Source: Neobacillus cucumis
GTDB lineage: Bacteria > Bacillota > Bacilli > Bacillales_B > DSM-18226
Assembly (NCBI RefSeq): GCF_023715505.1
Contig: NZ_JAMBOH010000003.1
Location: 186,001-250,000, forward strand
Direction of reading: 5' to 3'
DNA: 64,000 bases
Shown here: in pieces, positions 2,113-62,429 of the stretch
How the letters are laid out: each line of letters starts with the position of its first letter
Numbering within the stretch: position 1 is the first letter of the stretch
The notes under the pieces: generated by a model
What the model was told of the DNA's origin: nothing
Seen by the model: the letters and a program-made list of their open reading frames with translations, nothing else
Database searches by the model: none
Position numbers and translations under genes: made by a program

Positions 2113-2217
2113 TTCGCTGATAAAAGCTCTGGTTTCGCCGATATATTAGAAAAAACGGCCGATATATTGAAGATTTCCGCCGATATGTTAGAAAAAACCG
2201 CCGATATATCATCAAAG
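2113..2217. repeat. Intergenic 21-bp-period array A (five units)
   Basis: Five consecutive 21-bp units start at 2113, 2134, 2155, 2176 and 2197. Each opens with a core close to TTCGCCGATA and continues with 11 variable A/T-rich bases. Spacing is exactly 21 bp throughout. The array lies between the nadA terminator and the safA promoter. Similar arrays occur at 43427, 45943, 55737 and 61543. Confidence 0.9.
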
Positions 2218-2287: not shown

Positions 2288-3385
2288 TTATGAATTTTTT
2301 AACATCCTGTCTAAGGCTAATTTTGCATTTTCTGTGATCTCTGATCCCACTTTAATGATATTGTTAGTATCTTCTAAGGTTTCCAAACTCCAAACTAAAT
2401 GCGGCAAGTCAATACGATTCATTGTCAAACAAGGGCACATTTGTGGATTTAATGAGATAATCTGTTTATCCGGATGATCTTTGATAATCCTGTTTACTAG
2501 ATTCATCTCGGTTCCAATCGCCCAAGCTGAACCTGGCTCTGCCTTTTCGATTGTATTGATAATAAAACTTGTGGAGCCCGCCATATCGGCTAATTCAACA
2601 ACTTCCCGGCGGCATTCCGGATGAACGATAATTTTCATATCGGGATATTGAACACGTGTATCGGCGACGTTTTGAACAGTAAAGTTTTCATGGACAGAGC
2701 AATGCCCTTTCCAAAGAATCACTCTTATTTTTGAAACATCTCCCTCAAATTCAAGGGCATTCGAGATTGGATTCCAAATCGCCATCTCATCTAATCCAAT
2801 CCCTAAATCCGCTGCAGTATTCCGTCCTAAATGCTGATCAGGTAAAAATAAAATCCGTTCTTTGATTCCTAATGCCCATTTAACCATTGTTTCTGCATTG
2901 GAGGAGGTGACAGTTGCTCCGCCATTTTCACCAACGAACGCCTTAATGGCCGCGGTTGAATTGATATACGTTAAGGGAAGAATCGTGTCTCCAAACAGTT
3001 CTTGAAGCTTTTCCCATGCTCTCTCGGTTTGCTGGATATCGGCCATATCGGCCATGGAACAGCCGGCCCGCATATCAGGCAGAAATACCTTTTGATTGTC
3101 ACTTGTTAAAATATCGGCCGTCTCTGCCATAAAATGTACACCACAAAATACGATGAACTCGGCTTCCGTGTTTTTAGCTGATAATTGCGCTAGTTTTAAA
3201 GAATCACCGGTTGCGTCGGCGAACTGAATCACTTCGTCTTTTTGATAATGGTGACCTGGAATAAAAAGCCGGGAACCAAGCTGTTGTTTTACCTCGATGA
3301 CGCGGTTTTCAAGTTCTTCCCTCGTCATTTGCTTGTATTTTTCAGGAATCATCACATTCTTTTGTAAAGTTTCTAAGAAGCTCAT
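2288..3385 (-). CDS. nadA: Quinolinate synthase NadA
   Basis: NadA condenses iminoaspartate with dihydroxyacetone phosphate to quinolinate, the second step of de novo NAD synthesis, using a [4Fe-4S] cluster. The product has 365 residues, like B. subtilis NadA (about 368). Conserved cysteines are seen in [10 protein letters not shown] and [10 protein letters not shown], in [12 protein letters not shown], and in the [18 protein letters not shown] motif; the third group and the CS pair carry the expected cluster ligands. An ATG at 3394 is also in frame but touches the ribosome site AAAGGAG. The ATG at 3385 has 9-base spacing and lies one base after the nadC stop, so it is preferred. It is the last gene of nadB-nadC-nadA; the cluster is probably loaded by the divergent NifS. 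Confidence 0.96.
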
Positions 3386-3386
3386 T

Positions 3387-4235
3387 CTACTCATCTCCTT
3401 TATTCCATATTACTTTTACACTTATATCAAGGGCTTTATAGGAATGGGTCAGAAGCCCAAGAGAAATATAATCTACACCAGTATCACGATAGTCAGCGAT
3501 GTTCGCTAATTGGATGCCGCCGGAGGCCTCGGTAATGATACCAGCAGGGACCAGTTTGATAAACTCCTTAATTTCATCAGGTGTTCGGTTATCAAACATA
3601 ATCACATCCGCACCAGCTTGAACTGCTTCCCGTACTTGTTCTTCCGTTTCTACCTCTACCTCAACCTTTACCATATGACCAGCCTTTTTTCGGACCGCTT
3701 CTACTGCCTTTGAAATCGAGCCTGCAAACGAAATATGGTTATCCTTAATCATGACGGCATCGTATAAACCAAAGCGATGGTTAAAACCTCCGCCGCAGCG
3801 AACCGCGTATTTTTCAAGCATTCTTAAACCAGGGGTTGTTTTTCGTGTGTCACAAACCTTTGTATGACCACTATCAAGGGTATGAACCGCCTTTTGCGTT
3901 AAAGTAGCAATCCCACTCATCCTTTGGATTAAATTTAGGACCACCCGCTCTCCTTTTAGTAAGTCAGCGATTTTTCCTGAGACATTTGCAAGCTCTTGCC
4001 CCTTCTCGATTGCTTGGCCGTCCTTCACAAACAGCTCAACGGAAAGGTCATGATTTAAAAGATAAAAACCAGCTTTGATCACTTCCTCCCCGCAAAAGAC
4101 ACCCTCGTCCTTTGACAGAAATACAATCTTCCCCGTAGTATCATCCGAAAAAATGTAATCGGTTGTTATATCCTGTTCGCCAATATCTTCAATAAAAAAT
4201 TCCTCAAGTTGCGAGCGCAGTTTTAATGAGTTCAT
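3387..4235 (-). CDS. nadC: Nicotinate-nucleotide pyrophosphorylase (carboxylating) NadC
   Basis: This 282-residue enzyme (quinolinate phosphoribosyltransferase) converts quinolinate and PRPP to nicotinate mononucleotide. Family motifs are visible: [15 protein letters not shown], the [11 protein letters not shown] phosphate and PRPP region, MIKDNH, EVEVET, DVIMFDN, and the C-terminal EASGGI and SLGLLTHS strands of the barrel. GGAG lies 9 bases before the ATG. The 5' end overlaps nadB by 32 bases and the stop is followed directly by nadA, indicating translational coupling in one operon. Confidence 0.96.
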
Positions 4236-12725: not shown

Positions 12726-12838
12726 GAACTGCACCTCCTTATAAACTCAGACTCGCCAAATACAGGCGCTTATGCGTAAAGCAAAAGGCTTACTACCTGC
12801 ACTGTGCGGTTGTAGCACGGGTGCGCTACAAACATAAC
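12726..12838 (-). promoter_or_regulatory. L21 leader RNA
   Basis: The untranslated leader of rplU contains a strong hairpin (12811-12830, TGTAGCGC-ACCC-GTGCTACA on the minus strand). The conserved-looking segments CCGCACAGTGCAGG and GCGCCTGTATTTGGCGAG come just before the ribosome site. This matches the place and general build of the known Firmicute ribosomal L21 leader. I infer autoregulation by L21 but could not align it to a covariance model. Confidence 0.7.
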
Positions 12839-40420: not shown

Positions 40421-40680
40421 AAAACCCCAGTCGTCATAAAAGGACGAATGGAGTTTGCTTCGCGGTACCACCTTTTTTCCAATCAAAAAAACATGATTGG
40501 CTCTTAACTTAGATAACGGATTTTATCCGTCTTCCACTACTTGGATCTCTCCGTTCGCAGAAGAAGCTCATGGGCGACTTTCCAATGTTCTGCATAGGAA
40601 ATCTTTCAGCTAATGATTTCCCTCTCTTAAAGCAGGAGTGCATTGTACTCTTCCCTGTCGTAGCTCTCATTTTAAATTAT
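40421..40680 (-). promoter_or_regulatory. T-box leader of valS (GUC specifier)
   Basis: On the minus strand the canonical T-box GGTGGTACCGCG (40461-40472) precedes a terminator made of ACTCCATTCGTCC and GACGACTGGGGT with a T-run (about 40421-40455). Upstream, GAGAGGGAAATC and GCTGAAAGATTTCC are stem I elements, and the probable specifier is GUC (complement of 40576-40578) in GGAAAGTCGCCCATGAGC. Uncharged tRNA-Val would stabilise the antiterminator. Confidence 0.9.
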
Positions 40681-42184: not shown

Positions 42185-43291
42185 TTAATTTTTTGCAAGT
42201 GTCCCTGGAATGTAAAGAACCTGACCAACAGATACATCTTGATTTAAATCAAGATTATTGACACGGAGCAGGTTCGGAACGGATACATCATAGCGGTCTG
42301 CTAAGCTAGCGACCGTATCCCCTTTTTGAACAATGCAAACCTTTAATTTCGTTTGGCCTGTTCTTTCATCCTTACGGGCAAAGAACTCGGTCAATGTCAT
42401 ACTTTTCTTCTTAGCAGCCTTCTTCTTTTTCATTGCTTTTGGCGGCTCTTCAGAAGAAGAAGATGAACTTTCCTCAGAAACTTCTGCAACAATTACCTCT
42501 TCATGGTGCTGCGGGGCGTGTTCTTCCACCACAATAACTTCTGCGGTTGTTTCAACTGCTTCAGGATGGCTATCTTCACTCCTGGCCTCCTGGAGATTCC
42601 ATGCAGGAGAATACTCTTCTGTCTCTTCCTCCTCTTCTTCTTCCTCGACCTGAGGATGATAATTGAAGGTAGGGAATTTCGGTAAGATTTCAACTGGTTC
42701 TTCTTCTTCCTGCGGTTTCCTTGCTTCGGCTTCAAACAAGAAGTTGTTTTCAAAGCTGCTCTGGACGGCAGGTTGTTCTACTTCCACTTCTTCCTCTTCA
42801 TAACGGTGAAGTACTTCTAACTCTTGTTCTTCCTCTTGCTGCTGCTGTTCAACTTGTTCATTTCCATATAAGCCACTAATCGTTAATTCGGCAGAAAGCT
42901 TGATGCAGCTTCGCTCTGGGATGGAATAATCAAATGATTCTACAAGGACGTCGATATCATAGATACTTTGAATCCGGTTATTCGGAATCGTAATATCGAC
43001 TGGGAATCGGTGAGAAAATTCACAGGATCCCGCCTCTTCCAGTTCAGCTACTCTCTCGACAAATTTCTGAGAGGTAACCCCTTCCTCTTCACTTACTTCG
43101 CTTGCTTCGTAACTTTTATATTCGCCAGTTAATTGGAGCGAACCACGTATGGTTACGTACTGATCGTTTTCCTGGATGGTGATGTCCGGGTCTAGGGAAA
43201 TCGAAATGAGTTCCTCGACTTCCTGTCCTTTTCTAAACCACAATGACTCCTCCAAGGAAAATCGCAGGCACGATTGATTCTCTTGGGACAA
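42185..43291 (-). CDS. spoVID: SpoVID spore coat assembly protein
   Basis: SpoVID drives encasement of the forespore by coat proteins and binds SafA. The 368-residue protein has a conserved N-terminal domain (about 1-150; LRFSLEESLWFRKGQEVEEL, ISLDPDITIQ, FPVDITIPNNRI) and a very Glu-rich middle (about 165-300). A C-terminal LysM domain follows (about 318-362; KVCIVQKGDTVASLADRYDV). The TTG at 43291 has AAAGGAGG seven bases upstream and matches the homologue N-terminus better than the upstream GTG. Confidence 0.93.
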   Translation of the reverse strand: MSQENQSCLRFSLEESLWFRKGQEVEELISISLDPDITIQENDQYVTIRGSLQLTGEYKSYEASEVSEEEGVTSQKFVERVAELEEAGSCEFSHRFPVDITIPNNRIQSIYDIDVLVESFDYSIPERSCIKLSAELTISGLYGNEQVEQQQQEEEQELEVLHRYEEEEVEVEQPAVQSSFENNFLFEAEARKPQEEEEPVEILPKFPTFNYHPQVEEEEEEEETEEYSPAWNLQEARSEDSHPEAVETTAEVIVVEEHAPQHHEEVIVAEVSEESSSSSSEEPPKAMKKKKAAKKKSMTLTEFFARKDERTGQTKLKVCIVQKGDTVASLADRYDVSVPNLLRVNNLDLNQDVSVGQVLYIPGTLAKN

Positions 43292-43426
43292 AGCGACTCC
43301 TCCTTTCGTATCCTCCACGCAAAATCACTATGTCACTTAAACTCTATGTGGGAGGACTATTTTTTATGATAAAAATGGTATTCTGCCTTGCAAAAAGAAT
43401 TGTTTTGGAGGGGCTAATTAATCTGT

Positions 43427-43552
43427 TTGGCTGATTTTTCAGTTAGATTGGCTCATTTTCGGTGATCATTGGCCCATTTTTCGGAGGGTTTGGCTCATTT
43501 TTGAGCATGATTGGCTCATTTTCCATGATTATTGGATGATTTTCCATTTACG
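43427..43552. repeat. Intergenic 21-bp-period array B (six units)
   Basis: Six units of exactly 21 bp start at 43427, 43448, 43469, 43490, 43511 and 43532. Each begins TTGGCTCATT or a close variant, usually followed by a T-tract, and then variable sequence. The array lies between the hemL terminator and spoVID. It is the same type as array D at 55737. Confidence 0.93.
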
Positions 43553-43610: not shown

Positions 43611-44897
43611 TTATTTAAGTTTCGAAAAAGCAATCTCTGCTGCCTGAATTGTTTTTTCAATATCCTCATCAGAGTGCTCTGTTGATAGGAATAAGCCTTC
43701 AAACTGAGATGGCGGTAAGAATACCCCTTGATTAGCCATTTCGCGATAATAGGCCGCAAAGAAGTCTAAATTAGATGTCTTTGCTTTTTCATAGTTAATG
43801 ACAGCTTCATTCGTGAAGAAGAAACCAATCATCGAACCGGCACGGTTAAAACTGATTGGAATATCATATTTTTCCGCCGCCGCCTCAAATCCTTTTTGCA
43901 GCAAATCACCTTTACGGATAAACTCTTGATAGTGCTCTGGTGTTAACTGGCTTAATGTTTCAAGACCCGCTGTCATTGCCAATGGGTTACCAGATAAGGT
44001 ACCAGCTTGATAAATTGGGCCGCTTGGCGCAATTTGCTGCATGATTTCAGCTCTTCCGCCGTAAGCACCAACAGGAAGTCCACCGCCGATGACTTTTCCA
44101 AGACAGGTAATGTCAGGCGTTATATTAAAATAGCCTTGTGCACAGTTGTAGCCGACACGGAAACCGGTCATCACTTCATCAAAGATGAGTAGCGAGCCAT
44201 TGGCTGTTGTCAGCTCACGGAGACCTTCTAAGAAGCCTGGAAGCGGTGGAACAAGTCCCATGTTTCCAGCAACTGGCTCCACGATAATACACGCAATATC
44301 ATCGCCAAACTGTTCAAACGCATATTTAACACTTTCAAGATCATTATACGGAACTGTAATTGTATTTTTGGCAATCCCTTCAGGAACACCAGGGCTGTCA
44401 GGCAGCCCTAATGTAGCAACACCTGAACCTGCTTTAATTAACAATGAATCCCCGTGTCCATGGTAACAGCCTTCGAATTTTAAAATTTTGTTGCGGCCTG
44501 TATAGCCTCGTGCTAATCGAAGTGCACTCATTGTCGCTTCCGTTCCGGAGTTGACCATTCTGACTACTTCGATGGATGGGACACGCTCAATGACAAGTTG
44601 TGCTAATTTCGTTTCTAACTCTGTTGGGGCACCAAAGCTTGTCCCCAATTCAGCTGTTTTTTTCAAGGCCTCGACTACACGATCATTAGAGTGACCCAAA
44701 ATGAGCGGACCCCATGACAGTACATAATCAATATATTCATTGCCGTCTATATCATATATTTTTGACCCTTTGCCTCTTTCCATAAAAATAGGGCTCATAT
44801 TAACGGATTTAAAGGCACGAACCGGGCTGTTCACACCGCCAGGCATTAGGTTTTGGGCTTCTTTAAATGCTTCAATCGATTTGGTATACGAACGCAT
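43611..44897 (-). CDS. hemL: Glutamate-1-semialdehyde 2,1-aminomutase HemL
   Basis: This PLP enzyme converts glutamate-1-semialdehyde to 5-aminolevulinate. The 428-residue protein shows [12 protein letters not shown], the [20 protein letters not shown] cofactor region, [24 protein letters not shown] and the PLP lysine in [22 protein letters not shown] precedes the ATG. It is the last gene of the hem operon. Confidence 0.97.
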
Positions 44898-44922: not shown

Positions 44923-45903
44923 TTATTCCGCTTCTTTTAACCAGCGGCATGCATCCTTTGCATGATATGTGATGATTAGGTCAGCACCAGCACGCTTCAT
45001 TCCAACCAGCATTTCCATTACTGTATTTTTCTCGTCAATCCAGCCATTTTGCGCGGCGGCCTTAATCATGGCATACTCACCGCTTACGTTATAGATAACA
45101 ACAGGCAGATTGAAGTTGTTTTTTACATCACGAACGATGTCAAGGTATGGCATACCAGGCTTCACAATTAAGAAGTCTGCGCCTTCTGCCACATCCGATT
45201 CTGCTTCCCTGAAAGCTTCTAGGCGGTTTGCCGGGTCCATTTGGTAAGTTTTCCGGTCACCGAACTGTGGTGCACCCTCTGCTGCTTCACGAAACGGTCC
45301 GTAGAATGCGGATGCATATTTAACCGCATAAGACATGATTGGAATCTCAGTAAATCCTGCCTCATCTAATCCAGCACGAATTGCCGCAACAAACCCGTCC
45401 ATCATGTTTGAAGGGGCAATTATGTCAGCACCTGCTTTTGCTTGAGCGACCGCTGTTTTTACGAGTAAATCAAGGGATTGGTCGTTTAGAATTTTGTCTC
45501 CTTCCACCATTCCGCAATGTCCATGGTCGGTATATTCGCAAAGACAGGTATCTGCGACGATGATGATTTCTGGAAAGTGTTCTTTTATGTAACGGGTTGC
45601 GATTTGGACGATCCCGTGGTCATGAAAGGCTTGCGTTCCGCAGGCATCTTTTGTTTTGGGGATTCCGAATAGTAATACTGACTTGATACCATGTGCAACG
45701 ATGTCTTCCATTTCGGCTTGGAGATTGTCCATTGATACTTGGAATACTCCCGGCATAGATGACACTTCTTTACGGATGTTTTCGCCTTCATAAATAAATA
45801 ACGGATAAATGAAGTCTTCTGGTCTTATGTAATTTTCTCTTACAAGTGCACGCATATTAGCACTCGTCCGTAGTCGGCGGTGACGTTGAAATTGAAGTTC
45901 CAT
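44923..45903 (-). CDS. hemB: Porphobilinogen synthase HemB
   Basis: HemB condenses two 5-aminolevulinates. The 326-residue protein has the zinc-binding cysteines [16 protein letters not shown], the Schiff-base lysines in [16 protein letters not shown] and [12 protein letters not shown], and [16 protein letters not shown] at the N-terminus. GGAGG precedes the ATG. It is separated from hemD by a 200-bp spacer filled with a 21-bp repeat array. Confidence 0.97.
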
Positions 45904-45942: not shown

Positions 45943-46104
45943 CTGGCGGATAACTTTCGTTTAGTGGCGGATGCGCTCAGTTATCTGGCGCATGGCGTCT
46001 ATTTACTGGCGGATAGCTGACAATTACTGGCGATCAACTATATTACTGGCGGATAAACCACGATATCTGGCGCACGTCTACCTTTTTCTGGCGGATACCC
46101 ATCA
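45943..46104. repeat. Intergenic 21-bp-period array C (eight units) inside the hem operon
   Basis: Units with the core CTGGCGGATA start at 45943, 45964, 45985, 46006, 46027, 46046, 46067 and 46088. All steps are 21 bp except one of 19. The array ends at the base next to the hemD stop codon and leaves about 40 bases before the hemB start, so it is transcribed in the hemAXCDBL mRNA. Confidence 0.93.
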
Positions 46105-46881
46105 TCAACCTTCATTCTCAAGATAAGCAATCATGCTCTCCATCATATCCTTCACGGTATACTGCTCCGGCGACGCATGCACCGCCAGACCATACTCAAG
46201 CAGTTTTTTTTCCGTAACGGGTCCGATACAGCCGATTATACATTTTTTCAACTGCTCCTCCAAACCATACTCCTTCACGACCTCCATGAGATGATCAACA
46301 GTCGAAGGACTTGTAAAGGTGAGGATATCCAGGGCATTATCTGAAAGCAACCGGGCCAGCTTCAAACGGCTTGCCTCAGGCAGATAGGTTTCATAAATTA
46401 CCACTGCATCGACCTGTGCCCCTGCCGCCGTTAACGAAGTGGCAATATACTCCCGAGCCAAGTTGCCTTTTGGGAGCAAAATCTTGGCATGGACATCAAC
46501 AAGAGGGATAAACTCCTCGACAAACACCTCGGCAACATAGGCCGAAGGGACAAATGCCGGGTGAATCCCCCTCTCCTGCAAGACCTCGGCCGTTTTCTTC
46601 CCGATTACCGCAATTTTAGGCAATCCAGCTGCTTCACCGTCGTAAAACGAAAAAAAGGTTTCGACGGTGACATTGCTGGTAAAAATAATCCAGTCGTATG
46701 TATCAATAGCCTCCAAGCATACTTGAAGACGTTGATTTTTTTCAATCGGACGAAAGGCAATTAGAGGGATTTCAACAGGAATCCCTCCATACCTCTCGAC
46801 TAGCTGTGAGAATGATTTTGCTTGACCTCGTCCTCTAGGAACAAGAACTTTTTTATCAAGCAAAGCGCCGGTTTTACTCAC
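46105..46881 (-). CDS. hemD: Uroporphyrinogen-III synthase HemD
   Basis: HemD cyclises hydroxymethylbilane with inversion of ring D. The family is poorly conserved. The 258-residue product shows [54 protein letters not shown] and [15 protein letters not shown] in the expected two-domain order. The GTG at 46881 overlaps the hemC stop by 8 bases. An earlier TTG is possible. Synteny secures the name. Confidence 0.92.
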
Positions 46882-47812
46882 GACCTTCAAGCTCCCGCTT
46901 AACTCGATCAATCAGGTCCTTGGCTCCTTTTTTAATTAATAAATCAGCAGCCTGTTTTCCAAGCTCTTCCGGATTTTGTCCGCGAAGTTCTTCTCTGAAA
47001 ATCTCTTGGCCTTCTGGTGAGCCAACTAAAACATTTAAAACTACTTCATCCTTTTCATCTACTTGTGCAAAGCCGGCAATCGGCACCTGGCAGCCGCCCT
47101 CCATTTTTTGAAGGAATGCCCGTTCAGCACGAACGGCTTTTTCTGTCTTTTTGCATGTGAATTTTTCAAACAGCTCTAGCAGTTCCTTATCGTCGGCACG
47201 GCATTCAATGGATAATGCCCCTTGCCCTACTGCAGGAACACAAATATCGGCATCAATAAATTCCGTAACGACTTCCTTCGCCCATCCAAGACGGGATAGA
47301 CCTGCAGCAGCTAGAATAATGGCGTCGTATTCACCGGATTCTAATTTTTCTAATCTAGTATCGACATTTCCGCGGATCCATTTGATCTCTAAATCAGGAC
47401 GCTGGGCTAAAAGCTGGGAGCTGCGGCGAAGACTGCTTGTACCGATGATGGCACCTGGCTTTAAGTCATTCAATTTCACATGGCCCTTCGAAATCAAAAC
47501 GTCACGGTGATCTTCACGGAATGGAATGCAGCCGATCGTCAATCCTTCAGGAAGGACGGCCGGCATATCTTTCATACTATGGACAGCCATATCAATCTCT
47601 TTATCAAGCATAGCCTGTTCGATTTCTTTAACAAATAATCCTTTTCCGCCAACCTTTGAGAGCGTTACATCTTGGATTTTATCACCTTTGGTCACAATTT
47701 CTTTGACCTCAAAATCAAAATTGGGATTTAGCTTTTTAAGCTGGTCAATCACCCAATTTGTTTGTGTTAACGCCAATTTGCTTCGTCTAGAACCCACAAT
47801 AATTTTTCTCAT
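46874..47812 (-). CDS. hemC: Porphobilinogen deaminase (hydroxymethylbilane synthase) HemC
   Basis: HemC polymerises four porphobilinogens. The 312-residue protein has [48 protein letters not shown], the [19 protein letters not shown] region and the dipyrromethane-cofactor cysteine in [19 protein letters not shown] precedes the ATG. Confidence 0.97.
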
Positions 47813-53942: not shown

Positions 53943-55610
53943 TTAAATGGATTCTTTTTTTGACAATTCGATCGATGCTGGTATGGCTTCATTTATTGGA
54001 TATGAGTTAACCAAGGCAAGATCAAACACCTGTTGAAGGTGGGTAACTGGGACAATGTTGATTCCTTGAATTTCATTTAAAATCATTTGCATATTTTCTT
54101 CTGGTATAATAACCGTTTTAGCTCCGGCTTTTAAGGCTGCCTTCACCTTAGGATACACACCGCCGATCGGCTTTACATTACCATGAATGCTAATTTCTCC
54201 TGTCATGGCCACTGTGTTGTCAATCGGAATCTTATAAATAGCGGAATAAATTCCCGTCGCCATCGCAATCCCCGCCGAAGGACCATCGATTGGTACCCCG
54301 CCTGGGAAATTCACATGAATATCATAATCATTTGCCGGTACACCCATTGAACGTAAGACGGTAATCACGTTTTCGATGGAGCCGCGCGCCATACTCTTAC
54401 GGCGAATCGATTTACCCTGCCCGCCGATACTTTCTTCTTCCACAATACCAGTAATATTTATTGAACCCTTTTCCTTTGCAGGAATGACAGTTACTTCAAT
54501 TTCTAGCAGTGCACCGGAATTGGGCCCATAAACTGCTAAGCCATTAACCAGTCCAATATGGGACATATCGTTTATTTTTCTTTCCATCCTTGGCGTCATT
54601 TGGCTAGAATGAATGACCCACTCGATATCTTCGTCCTTAATAAAACTCCGATCTTCTGTAATCGCAAGTCCCGCCGCAATTTGGATCATATTGACTGTTT
54701 CCCGGCCGTTTCTTGCATATGTAGAAAGCGTGTCGACACCCTTCTCGCTTATTTCCATATTCACTTTATCAGCTGCTTTTTTCGCAACAGTGACAATCTC
54801 TTCCTGATTTAAATCACGGAAGAATACTTCCATACATCGAGAGCGAATCGCGGGTGGAATTTCACTTGGCGTTCTCGTTGTGGCCCCGATTAAACGAAAG
54901 TCGGCTGGAAGGCCATTTTTAAAAATATCATGGATGTGGGTTGGAATCTGCGTATTTTCTTCATGATAATAAGCACTTTCAAGAAAAACTTTACGATCCT
55001 CTAGAACTTTTAACAGTTTATTCATTTGAATCGGATGTAATTCACCAATTTCATCAATAAACAGCACTCCACCATGGGCATTGGTGACCGCCCCCTGCTT
55101 TGGCTGGGGTATTCCTGCTTGTCCCATTGCCCCGGCCCCCTGATAAATCGGGTCATGAACCGAACCGATTAGCGGATCCGCAATTCCTCTTTCATCAAAT
55201 CGAGCGGTTGTCGCATCTAACTCGATAAAAACGGATTGTTGTTTAAATGGTGATTTTTTATTCCTTTTAGCTTCCTCGAGGACGAGGCGGGCAGCTGCTG
55301 TTTTTCCGACCCCGGGCGGTCCATAAATAATCACATGCTGCGGGTTTGGTCCGCATAATGCTGCTTTTAATGATTTTATTCCATCTTCCTGGCCTACAAT
55401 ATCATTAAAACTGGTAGGACGAACTTTTTCAGATAACGGTTCTGTTAAGGATATCGATCTCATTTTGCGAAGCTGTTCCATCTCTTTACGGGATTCCCGA
55501 TCAATGGAGACTTTTTGGGTACGCTGGCTCCTCAGTAAATTCCAAAAATACAGCCCTATAATAATACCGAAAAATAGCTGTATAAATAAGGCAATCCCCG
55601 TCCAACTCAT
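53943..55610 (-). CDS. lonB: Forespore Lon-like protease LonB
   Basis: The 555-residue protein has an N-terminal membrane segment (about 4-22, GIALFIQLFFGIIIGLYFW) instead of the LonA N-domain. The AAA+ module carries [20 protein letters not shown] and GVLFIDEIGEL. The S16 protease domain has catalytic Ser in IDGPSAGIAMATG and Lys in IGGVYPKVKAA. In B. subtilis LonB is made in the forespore under sigma-F/G. GGAGGG precedes the ATG. Confidence 0.96.
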   Translation of the reverse strand: MSWTGIALFIQLFFGIIIGLYFWNLLRSQRTQKVSIDRESRKEMEQLRKMRSISLTEPLSEKVRPTSFNDIVGQEDGIKSLKAALCGPNPQHVIIYGPPGVGKTAAARLVLEEAKRNKKSPFKQQSVFIELDATTARFDERGIADPLIGSVHDPIYQGAGAMGQAGIPQPKQGAVTNAHGGVLFIDEIGELHPIQMNKLLKVLEDRKVFLESAYYHEENTQIPTHIHDIFKNGLPADFRLIGATTRTPSEIPPAIRSRCMEVFFRDLNQEEIVTVAKKAADKVNMEISEKGVDTLSTYARNGRETVNMIQIAAGLAITEDRSFIKDEDIEWVIHSSQMTPRMERKINDMSHIGLVNGLAVYGPNSGALLEIEVTVIPAKEKGSINITGIVEEESIGGQGKSIRRKSMARGSIENVITVLRSMGVPANDYDIHVNFPGGVPIDGPSAGIAMATGIYSAIYKIPIDNTVAMTGEISIHGNVKPIGGVYPKVKAALKAGAKTVIIPEENMQMILNEIQGINIVPVTHLQQVFDLALVNSYPINEAIPASIELSKKESI

Positions 55611-55736: not shown

Positions 55737-55862
55737 TTGGCTGATTATTTGAGACTATTGGCTGATTTTTCTTGGGGATTGGCCGATTTTTCTAGTGGAT
55801 TGGCTCATAATAAATGATCTTTGGCCCATTTTAAGCCATGATTGGCTTATTTTCCATTTATT
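55737..55862. repeat. Intergenic 21-bp-period array D (six units)
   Basis: Six units of exactly 21 bp start at 55737, 55758, 55779, 55800, 55821 and 55842, each opening TTGGCTGATT, TTGGCCGATT, TTGGCTCATA or similar. The array sits between the clpX terminator and lonB. The core is the same as array B. Confidence 0.93.
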
Positions 55863-55913: not shown

Positions 55914-57173
55914 TTATGCAGATTTTTCTTCAACCACAACAGTTCCATCCTCTAATACTAGCTTCGGAACACTATTATCAACAACAGTTTCTTTTGTAAT
56001 AATACACTTCGTAATATCCTCGCGTGAAGGAAGGTCGAACATGACATCCAACATAATACCTTCAATAATCGAACGTAAACCACGGGCACCCGTCTTCCGC
56101 TCAATTGCTTTTTTCGCGATTTCAGTTAGAGCGCCTTCTTCAAATTCAAGCTCCACATCATCGATTTCAAGCATTTTTTGATATTGCTTCACAAGTGCAT
56201 TTTTTGGTTTTGTTAAAATTTCAATTAATGCAGCCTCGTCTAACTGCTCAAGGCTCGCAATTACAGGAAGACGGCCAATAAATTCTGGAATTAATCCAAA
56301 GCGAAGCAAGTCTTCAGGTAATACTTTGGAAAGAAGTTCTTTTTGACCAATATCCACTTGCTTGACATCTGAACCGAAGCCGATAACCTTTTGGCCTAAA
56401 CGGCGTTTGATAATTGGCTCAATTCCGTCAAATGCACCACCGCAAATAAATAAGATGTTTGTTGTATCGATTTGAATAAATTCTTGATGCGGATGCTTTC
56501 TTCCACCTTGAGGCGGAACGCTTGCAACAGTACCTTCAAGAATTTTTAATAGAGCTTGCTGAACGCCTTCACCGGAAACATCTCTAGTAATCGATGGATT
56601 CTCCGATTTACGGGCAATTTTATCGATCTCATCGATGTAAATGATGCCTTTTTCAGCCTTCTCTACATCGTAATCTGCTGCTTGGATTAATTTTAAAAGA
56701 ATATTTTCAACGTCTTCACCAACGTAACCAGCCTCAGTAAGCGAGGTTGCATCAGCAATTGCAAACGGTACATTTAGGATACGCGCTAATGTTTGCGCTA
56801 ATAATGTCTTACCCGAACCAGTCGGCCCAATCATACAGATGTTACTTTTTGAAAGCTCAACATCATCAATTTTGCTATTAGAATTGATACGCTTGTAGTG
56901 GTTGTAAACCGCCACTGACAGCGATTTTTTGGCCTGATCCTGACCAATAACGTACTCATTTAAAATTTCACAGATTTCTTTTGGTTTTGGTACGTCTTTG
57001 AATTCTACTTCTTCTTCTGTTCCAAGTTCTTCTTCAACAATTTCCGTGCAAAGCTCGATGCATTCATCACATATATATACTCCCGGCCCGGCAACTAATT
57101 TACGAACTTGATCCTGTGTTTTGCCACAGAAGGAACACTTTAACTGTCCTTTTTCATCATTAAATTTAAACAA
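55914..57173 (-). CDS. clpX: ClpX ATPase subunit of the ClpXP protease
   Basis: The 419-residue unfoldase has the N-terminal zinc-binding domain ([29 protein letters not shown]), Walker [18 protein letters not shown], Walker [12 protein letters not shown], the IGF loop for ClpP docking ([10 protein letters not shown]) and sensor-2 [15 protein letters not shown]. The TTG at 57173 has AAGGGG eight bases upstream and gives the B. subtilis-like N-terminus FKFNDEKGQ. The GTG nine bases earlier is too close to that site. Confidence 0.97.
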
Positions 57174-57588
57174 TTCTTTCACCCCTTAACACGTGTTAAA
57201 ACCCTATTGAAGCTCGTGAATTACACAAACAAGTCCGAGTTTTTTCTCTCTTTTAATGGTATGTATTTTGCATTGTAACACATTTGACTATTGGACTGGA
57301 AATAAAACGCTTTAACAATTATGTTTTCTTTTTCTCGTTTTTGTTTGTGGAATTCGTTTTAAAAAACTATGTACTCATTAATCATAACCATAAATTAAAA
57401 AAATAAATCTTAAAACGCTATGGAAATATTTATTCGCTATGGATTGCGTTTTTTCCTGCCCATTGTAAAAACTTAAAATTATTAGGACCGGGAACATTAA
57501 AAAGGTTTCCCTGTCTTTATTATAATATGTAATTGAAAAAATGTATAAAACAAGGCACGATAAATATCGCGCCTTGCTAAATAATTCA
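57174..57588. other. AT-rich spacer between tig and clpX
   Basis: The 415-bp gap holds a 14-bp palindrome TTAACACGTGTTAA (57186-57199) abutting the clpX ribosome site, long AT-rich sequence and the tig terminator (57541-57576). An open frame over 57378-57608 crosses the terminator and has no ribosome site. No gene is supported. Confidence 0.7.
57541..57576 (-). terminator. tig terminator
   Basis: On the minus strand CAAGGCGCGAT pairs with ATCGTGCCTTG, followed by TTTTAT, 13 bases after the tig stop. Confidence 0.88.
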
Positions 57589-60189: not shown

Positions 60190-60266
60190 TGGCGTCCCAG
60201 GAGAGATTCGAACTCCCGACCGTACGCTTAGAAGGCGTATGCTCTATCCGGCTGAGCTACTGGGAC
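60190..60266 (-). tRNA. tRNA-Arg (anticodon UCU), CCA encoded
   Basis: On the minus strand the acceptor arms GTCCCAG and CTGGGAC pair, with discriminator G and encoded CCA. The D-arm AGCTCAGCCGGATAGAGC, anticodon loop CTTCTAA (anticodon TCT) with stem ACGC/GCGT, and T-arm CGGGAGTTCGAATCTCTCC are all complete, giving 77 bases. Confidence 0.97.
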
Positions 60267-60366: not shown

Positions 60367-60879
60367 TTAAAAAGTAAATTCTTGTGCTAATTTTGTAAGT
60401 TCACGCCCTGAAAGTTCAAACACTGACATATTGATTTTATCAGATTGTAAATCAAGAATCACGTATGTCTTTTCAGGACGCTCTCGTGGGAGGCGGATGC
60501 TGCCTGGATTGATAAAAAGCGTGCCGCCAACCACTTCTGCTCCTAAGACATGCGAGTGTCCGAAGCAGACAATATTGCCCTGAACTTCCTCTGCTTTGTA
60601 TTTTAGATTCATTAATGTCGACTTTACTGAATAGCGATGGCCATGAGTGATAAAGAACTTCCTACCTGCTATTTCAGTTGTTGTCTCCAATGGGTACTCG
60701 GCGCCAAAATCACAATTCCCCATGACCGTTAAATATCCTGAGATTGATTTATCAGTTGGCATCAATTCTGAATCACCGCAGTGAATCATTAAATCGACTT
60801 CACTTAAGTGACGTTCCCTAATGATTTCAAGCTCCTTCGTTAAGCCGTGACTGTCGCTGATAATTAATACCTTGCTCAT
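60367..60879 (-). CDS. ysnB: YsnB, YfcE/MJ0936-family metallophosphoesterase
   Basis: The 170-residue calcineurin-like phosphoesterase shows the metal motifs ISDSHG, IHCGDSE, VMGNCD, ITHGHRY and GHSHV, typical of the YfcE family of small phosphodiesterases. The cellular substrate is unknown. The start overlaps the ysnA stop (ATGA). Confidence 0.93.
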
Positions 60880-61487
60880 AATTTATCAGCTCTTTCTAGA
60901 ACGGAGTCTAACATGACATCCAGTTTTTTTAGCGCGTTCGCCCGGTGGCTTAGTTTATTTTTTTCATCAGAAGATAGTTCTGCCATTGATCGGCCTTTTT
61001 CTGGTACGTAAAAAACCGGGTCATAACCAAACCCATTCGTTCCGCGGCGCTCTTCGAGAATTCGGCCTTCGCAGGTGCCTGACACCGTTTTGGTGTCTTG
61101 ACCCGGAACTGCGATTGCCAGCGCACAATAGAATCTAGCCGTTCTCTTCTCATCAGGAACATCTTTTAGTTCTAATAACACTTTGTCTGTGTTATTCTCG
61201 TCGTTCTTGGGCTCACCGGCATAGCGGGCGGAGAAGATTCCTGGTCTGCCATCGAGTGCATCAACCATTAGCCCTGAATCATCGCCAATCACCATTTTAT
61301 TGAGTGCGCGGGAGACGGCCTCAGCTTTGAGGGTGGCGTTTTCTTCAAAGGTTGTTCCCGTTTCCTCTACCTCTGGTATTTCCGGGAAATCTAGTAATGT
61401 TCGAACAGTGATCCCTCTCGAAGAAAATATTTCCTCAAATTCTCTTGCCTTGCCTTTGTTTTTAGTCGCTATAATGACTTCTTTCAT
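60876..61487 (-). CDS. ysnA: XTP/dITP pyrophosphatase (RdgB/HAM1, YsnA)
   Basis: This enzyme removes non-canonical purine triphosphates (XTP, dITP). The 203-residue protein has the SHT-N(X)6K-like start [53 protein letters not shown], and C-terminal [10 protein letters not shown] and [10 protein letters not shown]. It is coupled to ysnB and lies about 186 bp after rph across a 21-bp-type array. Confidence 0.95.
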
Positions 61488-61542: not shown

Positions 61543-61665
61543 TTATGCGTCAGTAAAATTAAGTTATCCGCCCGTTTACTTGCTTATCCGCCAGTAATCT
61601 TCGCTTATCGCCAGTTAACCCTATCTATCAGCAAGTTAACCCATCTATCCAAGCGAAAACTAACT
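61543..61665. repeat. Intergenic 20-21-bp-period array E (about six units)
   Basis: On the plus strand TTATCCGCCAGTAA-like units recur with TATC/TATG at 61544, 61565, 61585, 61606, 61626 and 61646. Reverse-complemented, the core is CTGGCGGATAA, the same as array C but in the opposite orientation. The last two units are degenerate. The array starts 9 bases after the rph stop. Confidence 0.85.
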
Positions 61666-61673
61666 ACACCGAC

Positions 61674-62429
61674 TTATTTCTTCCTTCTACTCTCGATTTT
61701 TTTAATAATTTCCTCACCCAACGCTGCCTTCTGTTGTTCAAATAACTCCATGAGCCCCTCTTGTGCGGCATGAAGCAATCCTTGTAATTGGTCATAAGAG
61801 AAAGTGGACTCTTCACCAGTACCTTGCAGCTCAACAAATTCTCCATTCCCTGTCATGACTACATTCATATCCACTTCAGCCTTGGAATCTTCCGCATAGT
61901 TTAAGTCTAACACGACCTTCCCACCCGATAGGATCCCTACACTAGTTGCAGCTAAATAATCAGTAATTGGAAACTTGGAAAATGACCTTTTCTCCGCTAA
62001 TGAATTTAGAGCCAGAGTAAGCGCCACAAACGCACCAGTTATTGAGGCTGTCCGTGTCCCTCCGTCCGCCTGGATGACATCACAGTCAATCCAGACCGTT
62101 CTCTCACCCATTGCACTAAGATCGACAATCGCGCGAAGTGCACGGCCTATCAGGCGCTGAATCTCCATCGTCCTGCCGGTGACCTTTCCTTTCGAGGATT
62201 CGCGAATGTTTCTTGTTTCCGTTGCCCTTGGAAGCATGGAGTATTCCGCCGTGATCCAGCCTTTACCTTCCCCTCTCATAAAGTGAGGAACCCGGTCTTC
62301 AATGCTAGCTGTACAAATGACCTTTGTATTTCCGATTGAAATAAGGACAGAACCTTCTGGATGCATTAAATAATTGGTTTCGATATGTATTGGCCGAAGC
62401 TGCAATGGCTCTCTTCCATCAACACGCAC
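61674..62429 (-). CDS. rph: Ribonuclease PH
   Basis: This phosphorolytic 3'-5' exoribonuclease trims tRNA 3' ends. The 251-residue protein has [20 protein letters not shown], the [10 protein letters not shown] and [19 protein letters not shown] segments (here [17 protein letters not shown]), and [24 protein letters not shown] start with AAGGAGG upstream. It is the first gene of rph-ysnA-ysnB. Confidence 0.97.

Follow-up and report, generated by a model that had tools for sequence, protein, structure and literature searches.

A 64,000-nucleotide stretch of the Neobacillus cucumis contig NZ_JAMBOH010000003.1 (henceforth the window) carries, in five of its intergenic spacers, arrays of direct repeats in which a short core recurs at a pitch close to 21 bp. 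These arrays (A to E) had been described in an earlier note made from the letters alone, and our analysis confirmed that the repeat-array observation is real, with E a degenerate case. Neighbouring cores lie about two helical turns apart and hence on nearly the same face of the DNA, and between orthologous arrays the core diverges two to three times more slowly than the filler between cores, though not in every pair. We give about an even chance to the reading that the arrays are noncoding platforms of double-stranded DNA with multiple sites for a putative sequence-specific DNA-binding protein, which would make one contact every two turns. The strongest rival holds that they are minisatellites without function, in which units of 20-21 bp multiply by slippage or unequal exchange in tolerant spacers and evolve in concert with no binding protein. 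This we consider quite possible, if short of probable; it explains the turnover of arrays well, but the core/filler contrast and the narrow pitch poorly.

Phased arrays in the spacers of the window

We scanned the window with core and period left unspecified (periods 10-42, five units, nine columns, a score of 38 of 45). Outside genes this blind scan returned arrays A to D only, every one at period 21; inside genes it returned four repeats, of periods 18, 21 (twice) and 42. The four arrays came from the window's 29 spacers of at least 60 bases (6,126 bases), whereas 200 shuffled sets of the same spacers gave zero arrays at any period from 10 to 42, a comparison with shuffled intergenic sequence that had been proposed as a possible refutation. 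Nor did any array emerge from thirty 64-kb Markov sequences, for which the scan was confined to period 21. Array E fell below the thresholds of the blind scan and was recovered solely by a laxer chain of 4 units, a class whose chance background is 6 chains of 4-5 units per 640 kb of Markov sequence at any spacing of 12-40. Direct reading of the arrays (Table 1) agreed with the unit numbers (five to eight) and step lengths first reported.

Table 1. Repeat arrays of the window, with their cores and flanking genes
Array	Position	Strand	Units and steps	Core	Flanking genes and setting
A	2113..2217	+	5 units, all steps 21 bp	TTCGCCGATA	LysM-domain protein gene (96-2009) / nadA (2288-3394)
B	43427..43552	+	6 units, all steps 21 bp	TTGGCTSATT	spoVID (42185-43318) / hemL (43611-44897); just past the terminator-like hairpin of hemL
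C	45943..46104	+	8 units, steps 21,21,21,21,19,21,21	ACTGGCGGATA	hemB (44923-45903) / hemD (46105-46911); within the hem gene series
D	55737..55862	+	6 units, all steps 21 bp	TTGGCTSATT	Lon-type protease gene (53943-55610) / clpX (55914-57182)
E	61543..61665	-	about 6-7 degenerate units, steps 20-21 bp	ACTGGCGGATA	Ham1-family gene (60876-61487) / RNase PH gene (61674-62429)

The cores had been aligned as one consensus, YTSGCNSATW. In its strict form this matches 17 array units. The window has 22 matches where 9.4 would be expected, and five of the 22 lie outside arrays; units 3-5 of array A violate one or both of the first two letters of the consensus. Short recurrent cores are thus borne out, but a single consensus is too narrow, for there are several classes that differ by lineage: TTSGCTSATT (window B and D), ACTnnCGGATA (C and E), TTCGCCGATA (A), CGCTCATAAA (Sporosarcina and Fictibacillus) and TACTGTCCA (Planococcus and Fictibacillus). 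Cores are 8-13 bp long and fillers about 11 bp, with 10-11 bp separating successive cores. Over 154 unit pairs, neighbouring units agreed per column at 79-95% inside the core, values that are inflated by the array detection procedure, and at 36-60% outside it, so that the fillers, which had been said to vary freely, are less conserved than the cores without being wholly free. Of 45 arrays, 31 showed a stronger contrast than a uniform rate would give (p<0.01).

The pitch is narrow. All 54 regular noncoding arrays returned by a scan of 16-26 bp, in a larger locus collection with many loci chosen around known cores, have a period of 20 (22 arrays) or 21 (32 arrays). Within 21-bp arrays, steps deviated downward 30 times and upward 3 times. 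The proposed pitch of two helical turns therefore holds as tight spacing near two turns, but an exact 21 is not needed, since period 20 occurs almost as often and steps of 19 bp are seen repeatedly. A 19-bp step is present in 8 of the 12 arrays of the ACTnnCGGATA/ACTGGCGG class that we viewed (array C, L183, L189, L214, L233, L235, L239 and L240). As its position is not always central, we dropped the idea of a central phase corrector; a variant copied in blocks is more likely, given a block duplication within the array of L251. Among ACTGGCGG arrays sharing the 19-bp step, fillers at the same position were 39% alike and other fillers 34% alike (p=0.10), which leaves descent by copying unsupported. 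In each of the four arrays checked, the 19-bp unit is followed by filler of lower G/(G+C) than the filler that precedes it.

Distribution and turnover across Bacillales

Among hemB-anchored loci of 80 genome records, the nearest named relative by HemB is Bacillus sp. AFS073361 (G001, 90%), followed by Neobacillus sp. PS3-12 and Robertmurraya (79-81%); G280 and G307, of the same genus as G001, are nearer still (97%). Blind searches revealed noncoding arrays in Neobacillus sp. PS3-12, Sporosarcina, Planococcus, Planomicrobium, Fictibacillus, Alkalihalobacillus and the genus of G001, so the search of relatives that the note had suggested, here among Bacillales, shows a family that extends far past the window. 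In 100 loci not chosen for arrays (2.03 Mb) we found 18 noncoding chains of at least five units, eight of the 20-21 type and ten with mixed steps, many of these AT-rich and irregular, while Markov copies of the same loci gave zero chains of five or more units. Scans filtered for complexity and regularity returned 8 regular noncoding arrays (periods 10-80) in 81 unselected loci (1.65 Mb), seven of them at 20 or 21, although in this set the gene filter loses arrays overlapped by short open reading frames (for example in L001, L022 and L028) and the regularity filter loses L120. In 39 loci of other groups (0.68 Mb) they returned one regular array at 19 and one at 74.

Core counts, controlled by the same pattern read backwards, varied strongly between genomes. 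The core YGCTCATAAA exceeded its control in S. gallistercoris (277 vs 13), S. luteola (78 vs 20), F. phosphorivorans (49 vs 14) and two other genomes (47 vs 24 and 27 vs 16), with no excess in the last two of the seven. CGCTCATAAA is strongly enriched in a minority of 150 genomes of the order (196/7, 190/3, 91/4, 84/4 and 71/5, sites over control) and near the control level in most. At least 11 TACTGGCGSATA sites occur in 5 of 121 family genomes, mostly as 20-bp runs in four and as 21-bp runs in G001. With one core at both 20 and 21 bp, codon periodicity is excluded.

This bears on decay from heptad-repeat genes, which the earlier note had named as a refuting origin. In its favour, 21 bp corresponds to seven codons, a small number of frames in A, B and E stay open, and the window does hold genuine in-gene repeats of 18, 21 and 42 bp. 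Coding remnants should, however, have units in multiples of three and an open frame, whereas identical cores stand at 20 bp, most frames contain stops, and array C arose in a spacer that is only 3-58 bp in 13 of 30 relatives. We rejected this origin, whose probability we take to be negligible.

Several core classes coexist in one genome, neighbouring arrays of a genome differ in core type, and similar cores reappear in distant genera. By hand count of complete listings, G277 has nine ATTGGCTCATT clusters and zero ATTCGCTCATT clusters at unlinked sites, G275 zero and three, and G279 zero and two. Such a uniform core allele across unlinked clusters suggests a trans-acting reader or spread between loci. 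Among the 61 genomes in the genus of G001, those rich in ATTGGCTCATT (at least 16 sites, 5 of 61) and in ATTCGCTCATT (11 of 61) overlapped in none against 0.9 expected, which by itself is not significant (probability of no overlap 0.36). Of 20 places chosen for a TACTGGCG core, 15 have no array of four or more units. Enrichment of TTGGCTSATTTT in G065 was dropped as evidence of arrays, nearly all 48 copies being scattered single sites; in the same genome TTGGCTCATTTT, with 48 copies against 2 control matches, nearly all single and scattered, is perhaps part of a dispersed repeat.

Individual arrays show further structure. In several arrays of S. gallistercoris core variants alternate at 40-42 bp, and in L164-L167 of this species GCTCATAAA and GATCATAAA cores alternate with a 40-bp super-period even where the fillers have diverged. 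Neobacillus sp. PS3-12 carries a long CGGATATA array (L105:4379-5209) of 26 to 31 units depending on settings, with steps of 20, 21 and 39, as well as a spacer (L117:8207-8340) with 21-bp spaced sites like TTATCCACA, which we take to resemble DnaA boxes. In Fictibacillus phosphorivorans the arrays of L147 and L153 enter stretches of N, either an assembly gap or withheld sequence, so that their unit counts are lower bounds.

Comparison of orthologous spacers, another check the note had called for, showed that arrays are gained, lost, lengthened and shortened between species. The hemB-hemD spacer is 197 bp in the window and 1 bp in G001, where array C is missing; likewise, the hemL-spoVID spacer is 194 bp in the window and 7 bp in G001, where array B is missing. 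Array B has six units in the window, about five in G307 and one or two in G280, while the place of array A has five units in G280 too (by eye). Inspected by eye in 30 relatives, the hemB-hemD spacer holds at least five units in 5, two or three in 3, one in 4, none in 13 (the spacers of 3-58 bp) and another insert in 5 (L280 incomplete). Those of L251 and L252 hold about 10-12 units each. In the clpX-lonB spacer, three or more units could be recognised in 14 of 30 relatives (by eye, last 330 bases per spacer), and an automatic count with a gene filter over whole clpX-lonB loci gave 6 of 30.

Where arrays persist, the core can change. In the clpX-lonB spacer, four close relatives of the window carry TTGGCTSATT cores, seven relatives carry ATTCGCTSATTG, two carry TTTTGKCTATTTT and L293 carries a composite. 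At the D spacer both the window and G001 have arrays, with the core ATTGGCTSAT in the former and ATTCGCTCAT, found also in several relatives, in the latter; at the E spacer the cores are TATCCGCCAGTA and TATCCGAGAGTA (the G001 core also written TACTCTCGGATA). In both D and E nearly every unit shows the difference between species. A dispersed element of about 150-300 bp (CTGTTGATTTCCACTCCAGGCACTTCGC...) lies in the hemB-hemD spacer of L266, L268, L270, L278 and L280 and in spacer E of G001 (L173); it occupies spacers that bear arrays elsewhere, and these spacers therefore tolerate insertions.

Much of this turnover is what functionless minisatellites would produce. Gain and loss occur at orthologous spacers, neighbouring arrays within a genome have unlike core types, cores switch block-wise inside some arrays (CTGGCG, CTCTCG, TTGCGG), the array of L251 contains its block duplication, and L192 holds 42 nearly perfect units of 20 bp, as in young arrays. 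If whole units were replaced, fillers ought to become uniform along with cores, yet the cores are better kept; nor does this explanation readily account for units restricted to 20-21 bp or for similar cores in distant genera.

Core constraint, genomic position and a putative binding protein

Pooled over four close orthologous pairs, differences fall at 14 of 250 core positions and 33 of 271 filler positions (p=0.009), with 8/100 against 18/106 in L251/L252 and 1/60 against 11/66 in L302/L305. Array A of the window differs from G280 at 3/40 core and 20/55 filler positions, and array B from G307 at 2/50 and 18/55. All six pairs together give 19/340 against 71/381 (p=7e-8), both p values being rough because sites within one array are not independent. 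A minisatellite in which all unit columns evolve alike does not predict this difference, from which two pairs depart (see below). Six further pairs of uncertain unit homology, excluded from the pools, go in the same direction (core 9-17%, filler 45-56%), with a bias from core-based alignment.

The arrays also occupy a preferred place. With genes called by a simple open reading frame rule, some loci chosen for arrays and a few four-unit arrays in the set, 31 arrays divide into 18 in tandem, 12 in convergent and 1 in divergent gaps, against 599, 100 and 147 of 846 background gaps of at least 120 bp; arrays are thus enriched in convergent gaps (p=0.0002) and rare in divergent ones (p=0.047), and in tandem spacers lie a median of 90 bp from the upstream gene end and 199 bp from the next start (p=0.016). 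Their direction follows no rule: among the tandem spacers, 22 arrays belong to a known core class, and 8 of these share the orientation of the genes whereas 14 have the opposite one. An element acting as RNA, be it a leader, a sponge or part of a terminator, could draw on the terminator-like hairpin that precedes several arrays and on the position of C and E between co-directional genes, where they may be transcribed. The lack of a preferred direction speaks against it, as does the folding of 16 array strands (z from -2.4 to +1.4, 3 of 16 below -2), which gave no consistent fold, and no array was matched by Rfam. We hold an RNA-level role to be very improbable.

A DNA platform fits these results because the pitch is fixed, cores are better conserved than fillers, direction is free, neither an RNA nor a protein reading is apparent and arrays are scarce at divergent promoters. 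Since direction relative to genes is free, the selected feature would be DNA binding rather than RNA. One protomer or dimer might sit on each core and touch its neighbours, giving a cooperative cluster or short filament, and the complex, at the boundaries of transcription units, might constrain supercoils or block stray transcription, by analogy with the REP/BIME elements discussed below. New units would be created by tandem duplication, selection for binding would preserve the cores while fillers drift, and a changed preference of the protein, or unit replacement, would shift the core of a whole array.

Several observations weigh against such a platform. In two of the four closest pairs the contrast is absent (L281/L285, core 4/60 and filler 4/66; L286/L291, 1/30 and 0/33), a point also in favour of minisatellites, so that the claim of spacing kept while filler is lost holds insofar as cores outlast fillers but not in each comparison. 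Arrays C and E each separate genes that probably belong to one operon, which is a poor fit with blocking transcription. The same spacer is array-free in many relatives, so no array is indispensable there. Several core classes occur per genome, the ACTnnCGGATA class mixes GG and CT within one array, and array A has a TTCGC core in a window that also holds TTGGC arrays; given mixed core classes in a genome, one protein with one specificity is insufficient. Finally, the earlier proposal of a DNA-binding protein assembling along the array is in keeping with the pitch, the core constraint and the noncoding origin, but we infer the protein itself, its cooperativity and its role from sequence.

A broader and doubtful extension of the platform reading would be a chromosomal address system across Bacillales, in which a fast-evolving family of DNA-binding proteins would occupy two-turn arrays at transcription-unit boundaries and co-evolve with the core. 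Equally tentatively, unlinked arrays may switch core allele by lineage (TTGGC to TTCGC, ACTGGCGG to ACTCTCGG), in a manner that could be likened to eukaryotic centromere satellites. If the arrays do load a protein, they would constitute an undescribed Bacillales family of chromosomal protein platforms with a fast-evolving target word, and a bacterial counterpart of satellite/binding-protein co-evolution. If they are functionless, they would offer a clean natural example of how a 10-bp word evolves in concert at a fixed pitch, and still be a likely source of false CRISPR, promoter and noncoding RNA calls.

Comparison with described repeat families

The nearest described family is the STAR elements of staphylococci, characterised as intergenic direct repeats with a short core, a variable unit number, loci that differ between species and a function given as unknown (PMC3532100). 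Their GC-rich core measures 14 bp, successive cores stand 40-44 bp apart and the element opens with a start signature (PMC3532100); STAR-like elements also figure as 'false CRISPRs' (PMC5294841). Like STAR elements as so described, the arrays are intergenic short-core direct repeats whose unit number varies and whose loci differ by species; unlike them, they have a pitch of about two turns and cores that vary by class and lineage. The STAR core T(G/A/T)TGTTG(G/T)GGCCC(C/A), at 2 mismatches, gave 3 matches in the window against 3.2 expected, none in an array, and the exact pattern is in 0 of 315 loci. Array cores are separated by 10-11 bp instead of the 40-44 bp or so of STAR elements, and the start signature GTGGGACAGAAATGAT had 0 matches in the window at up to 3 mismatches. 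Core, spacing and start signature together rule out STAR membership. We found no description of such Bacillales arrays in open-licence PubMed Central text; the claim that no described family has these properties agrees with this, but intergenic direct-repeat arrays as a kind are already known.

In CRISPR arrays the repeats measure at least about 23 bp and the unique spacers at least about 26 bp; the cores of 8-13 bp and fillers of about 11 bp are shorter. None of the ten genes flanking the five window arrays is cas, although no search aimed at cas genes was made.

In plasmid iterons and ParR centromeres, direct repeats stand roughly two turns apart and take up a protein cooperatively. The arrays share this spacing, and could on that ground be chromosomal sites for a plasmid-type Rep or ParR-like protein, derived from or shared with mobile elements. 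Here, however, there are many small chromosomal arrays with several core classes, scattered over many spacers by housekeeping genes, and no Rep, ParR, replication or partition gene is among the ten flanking genes of the window arrays. With the BLAST low-complexity filter on, neither of two array queries matched any of 72,556 plasmid records, and one of the two also matched none of 50,697 phage records; when the hem region was the query, the phage search brought up the hem genes and nothing else, in entries labelled phage. We judge an iteron- or centromere-like origin improbable.

REP/BIME elements of enterobacteria are extragenic, lie near gene ends and are rare at divergent promoters; they bind gyrase and are thought to constrain supercoils or block stray transcription. 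The arrays have the same positional habits, but REPs are imperfect palindromes, whereas array cores are direct repeats with no consistent fold. Bacterial minisatellites, or variable-number tandem repeats, gain and lose units and are near-perfect when young. Unit number indeed changes between relatives (array B; L286 vs L291), as in minisatellites; the confinement of unit length to 20-21 bp and the outlasting of fillers by cores set the arrays apart from them.

Other features of the window lie apart from the arrays: repeats of period 42 and 18 bp at 594-1055 and 1587-1692 inside the LysM-domain protein gene and, all three on the minus strand, a T-box leader (40437-40670), an L21 leader (12739-12821) and a tRNA (60193-60266).
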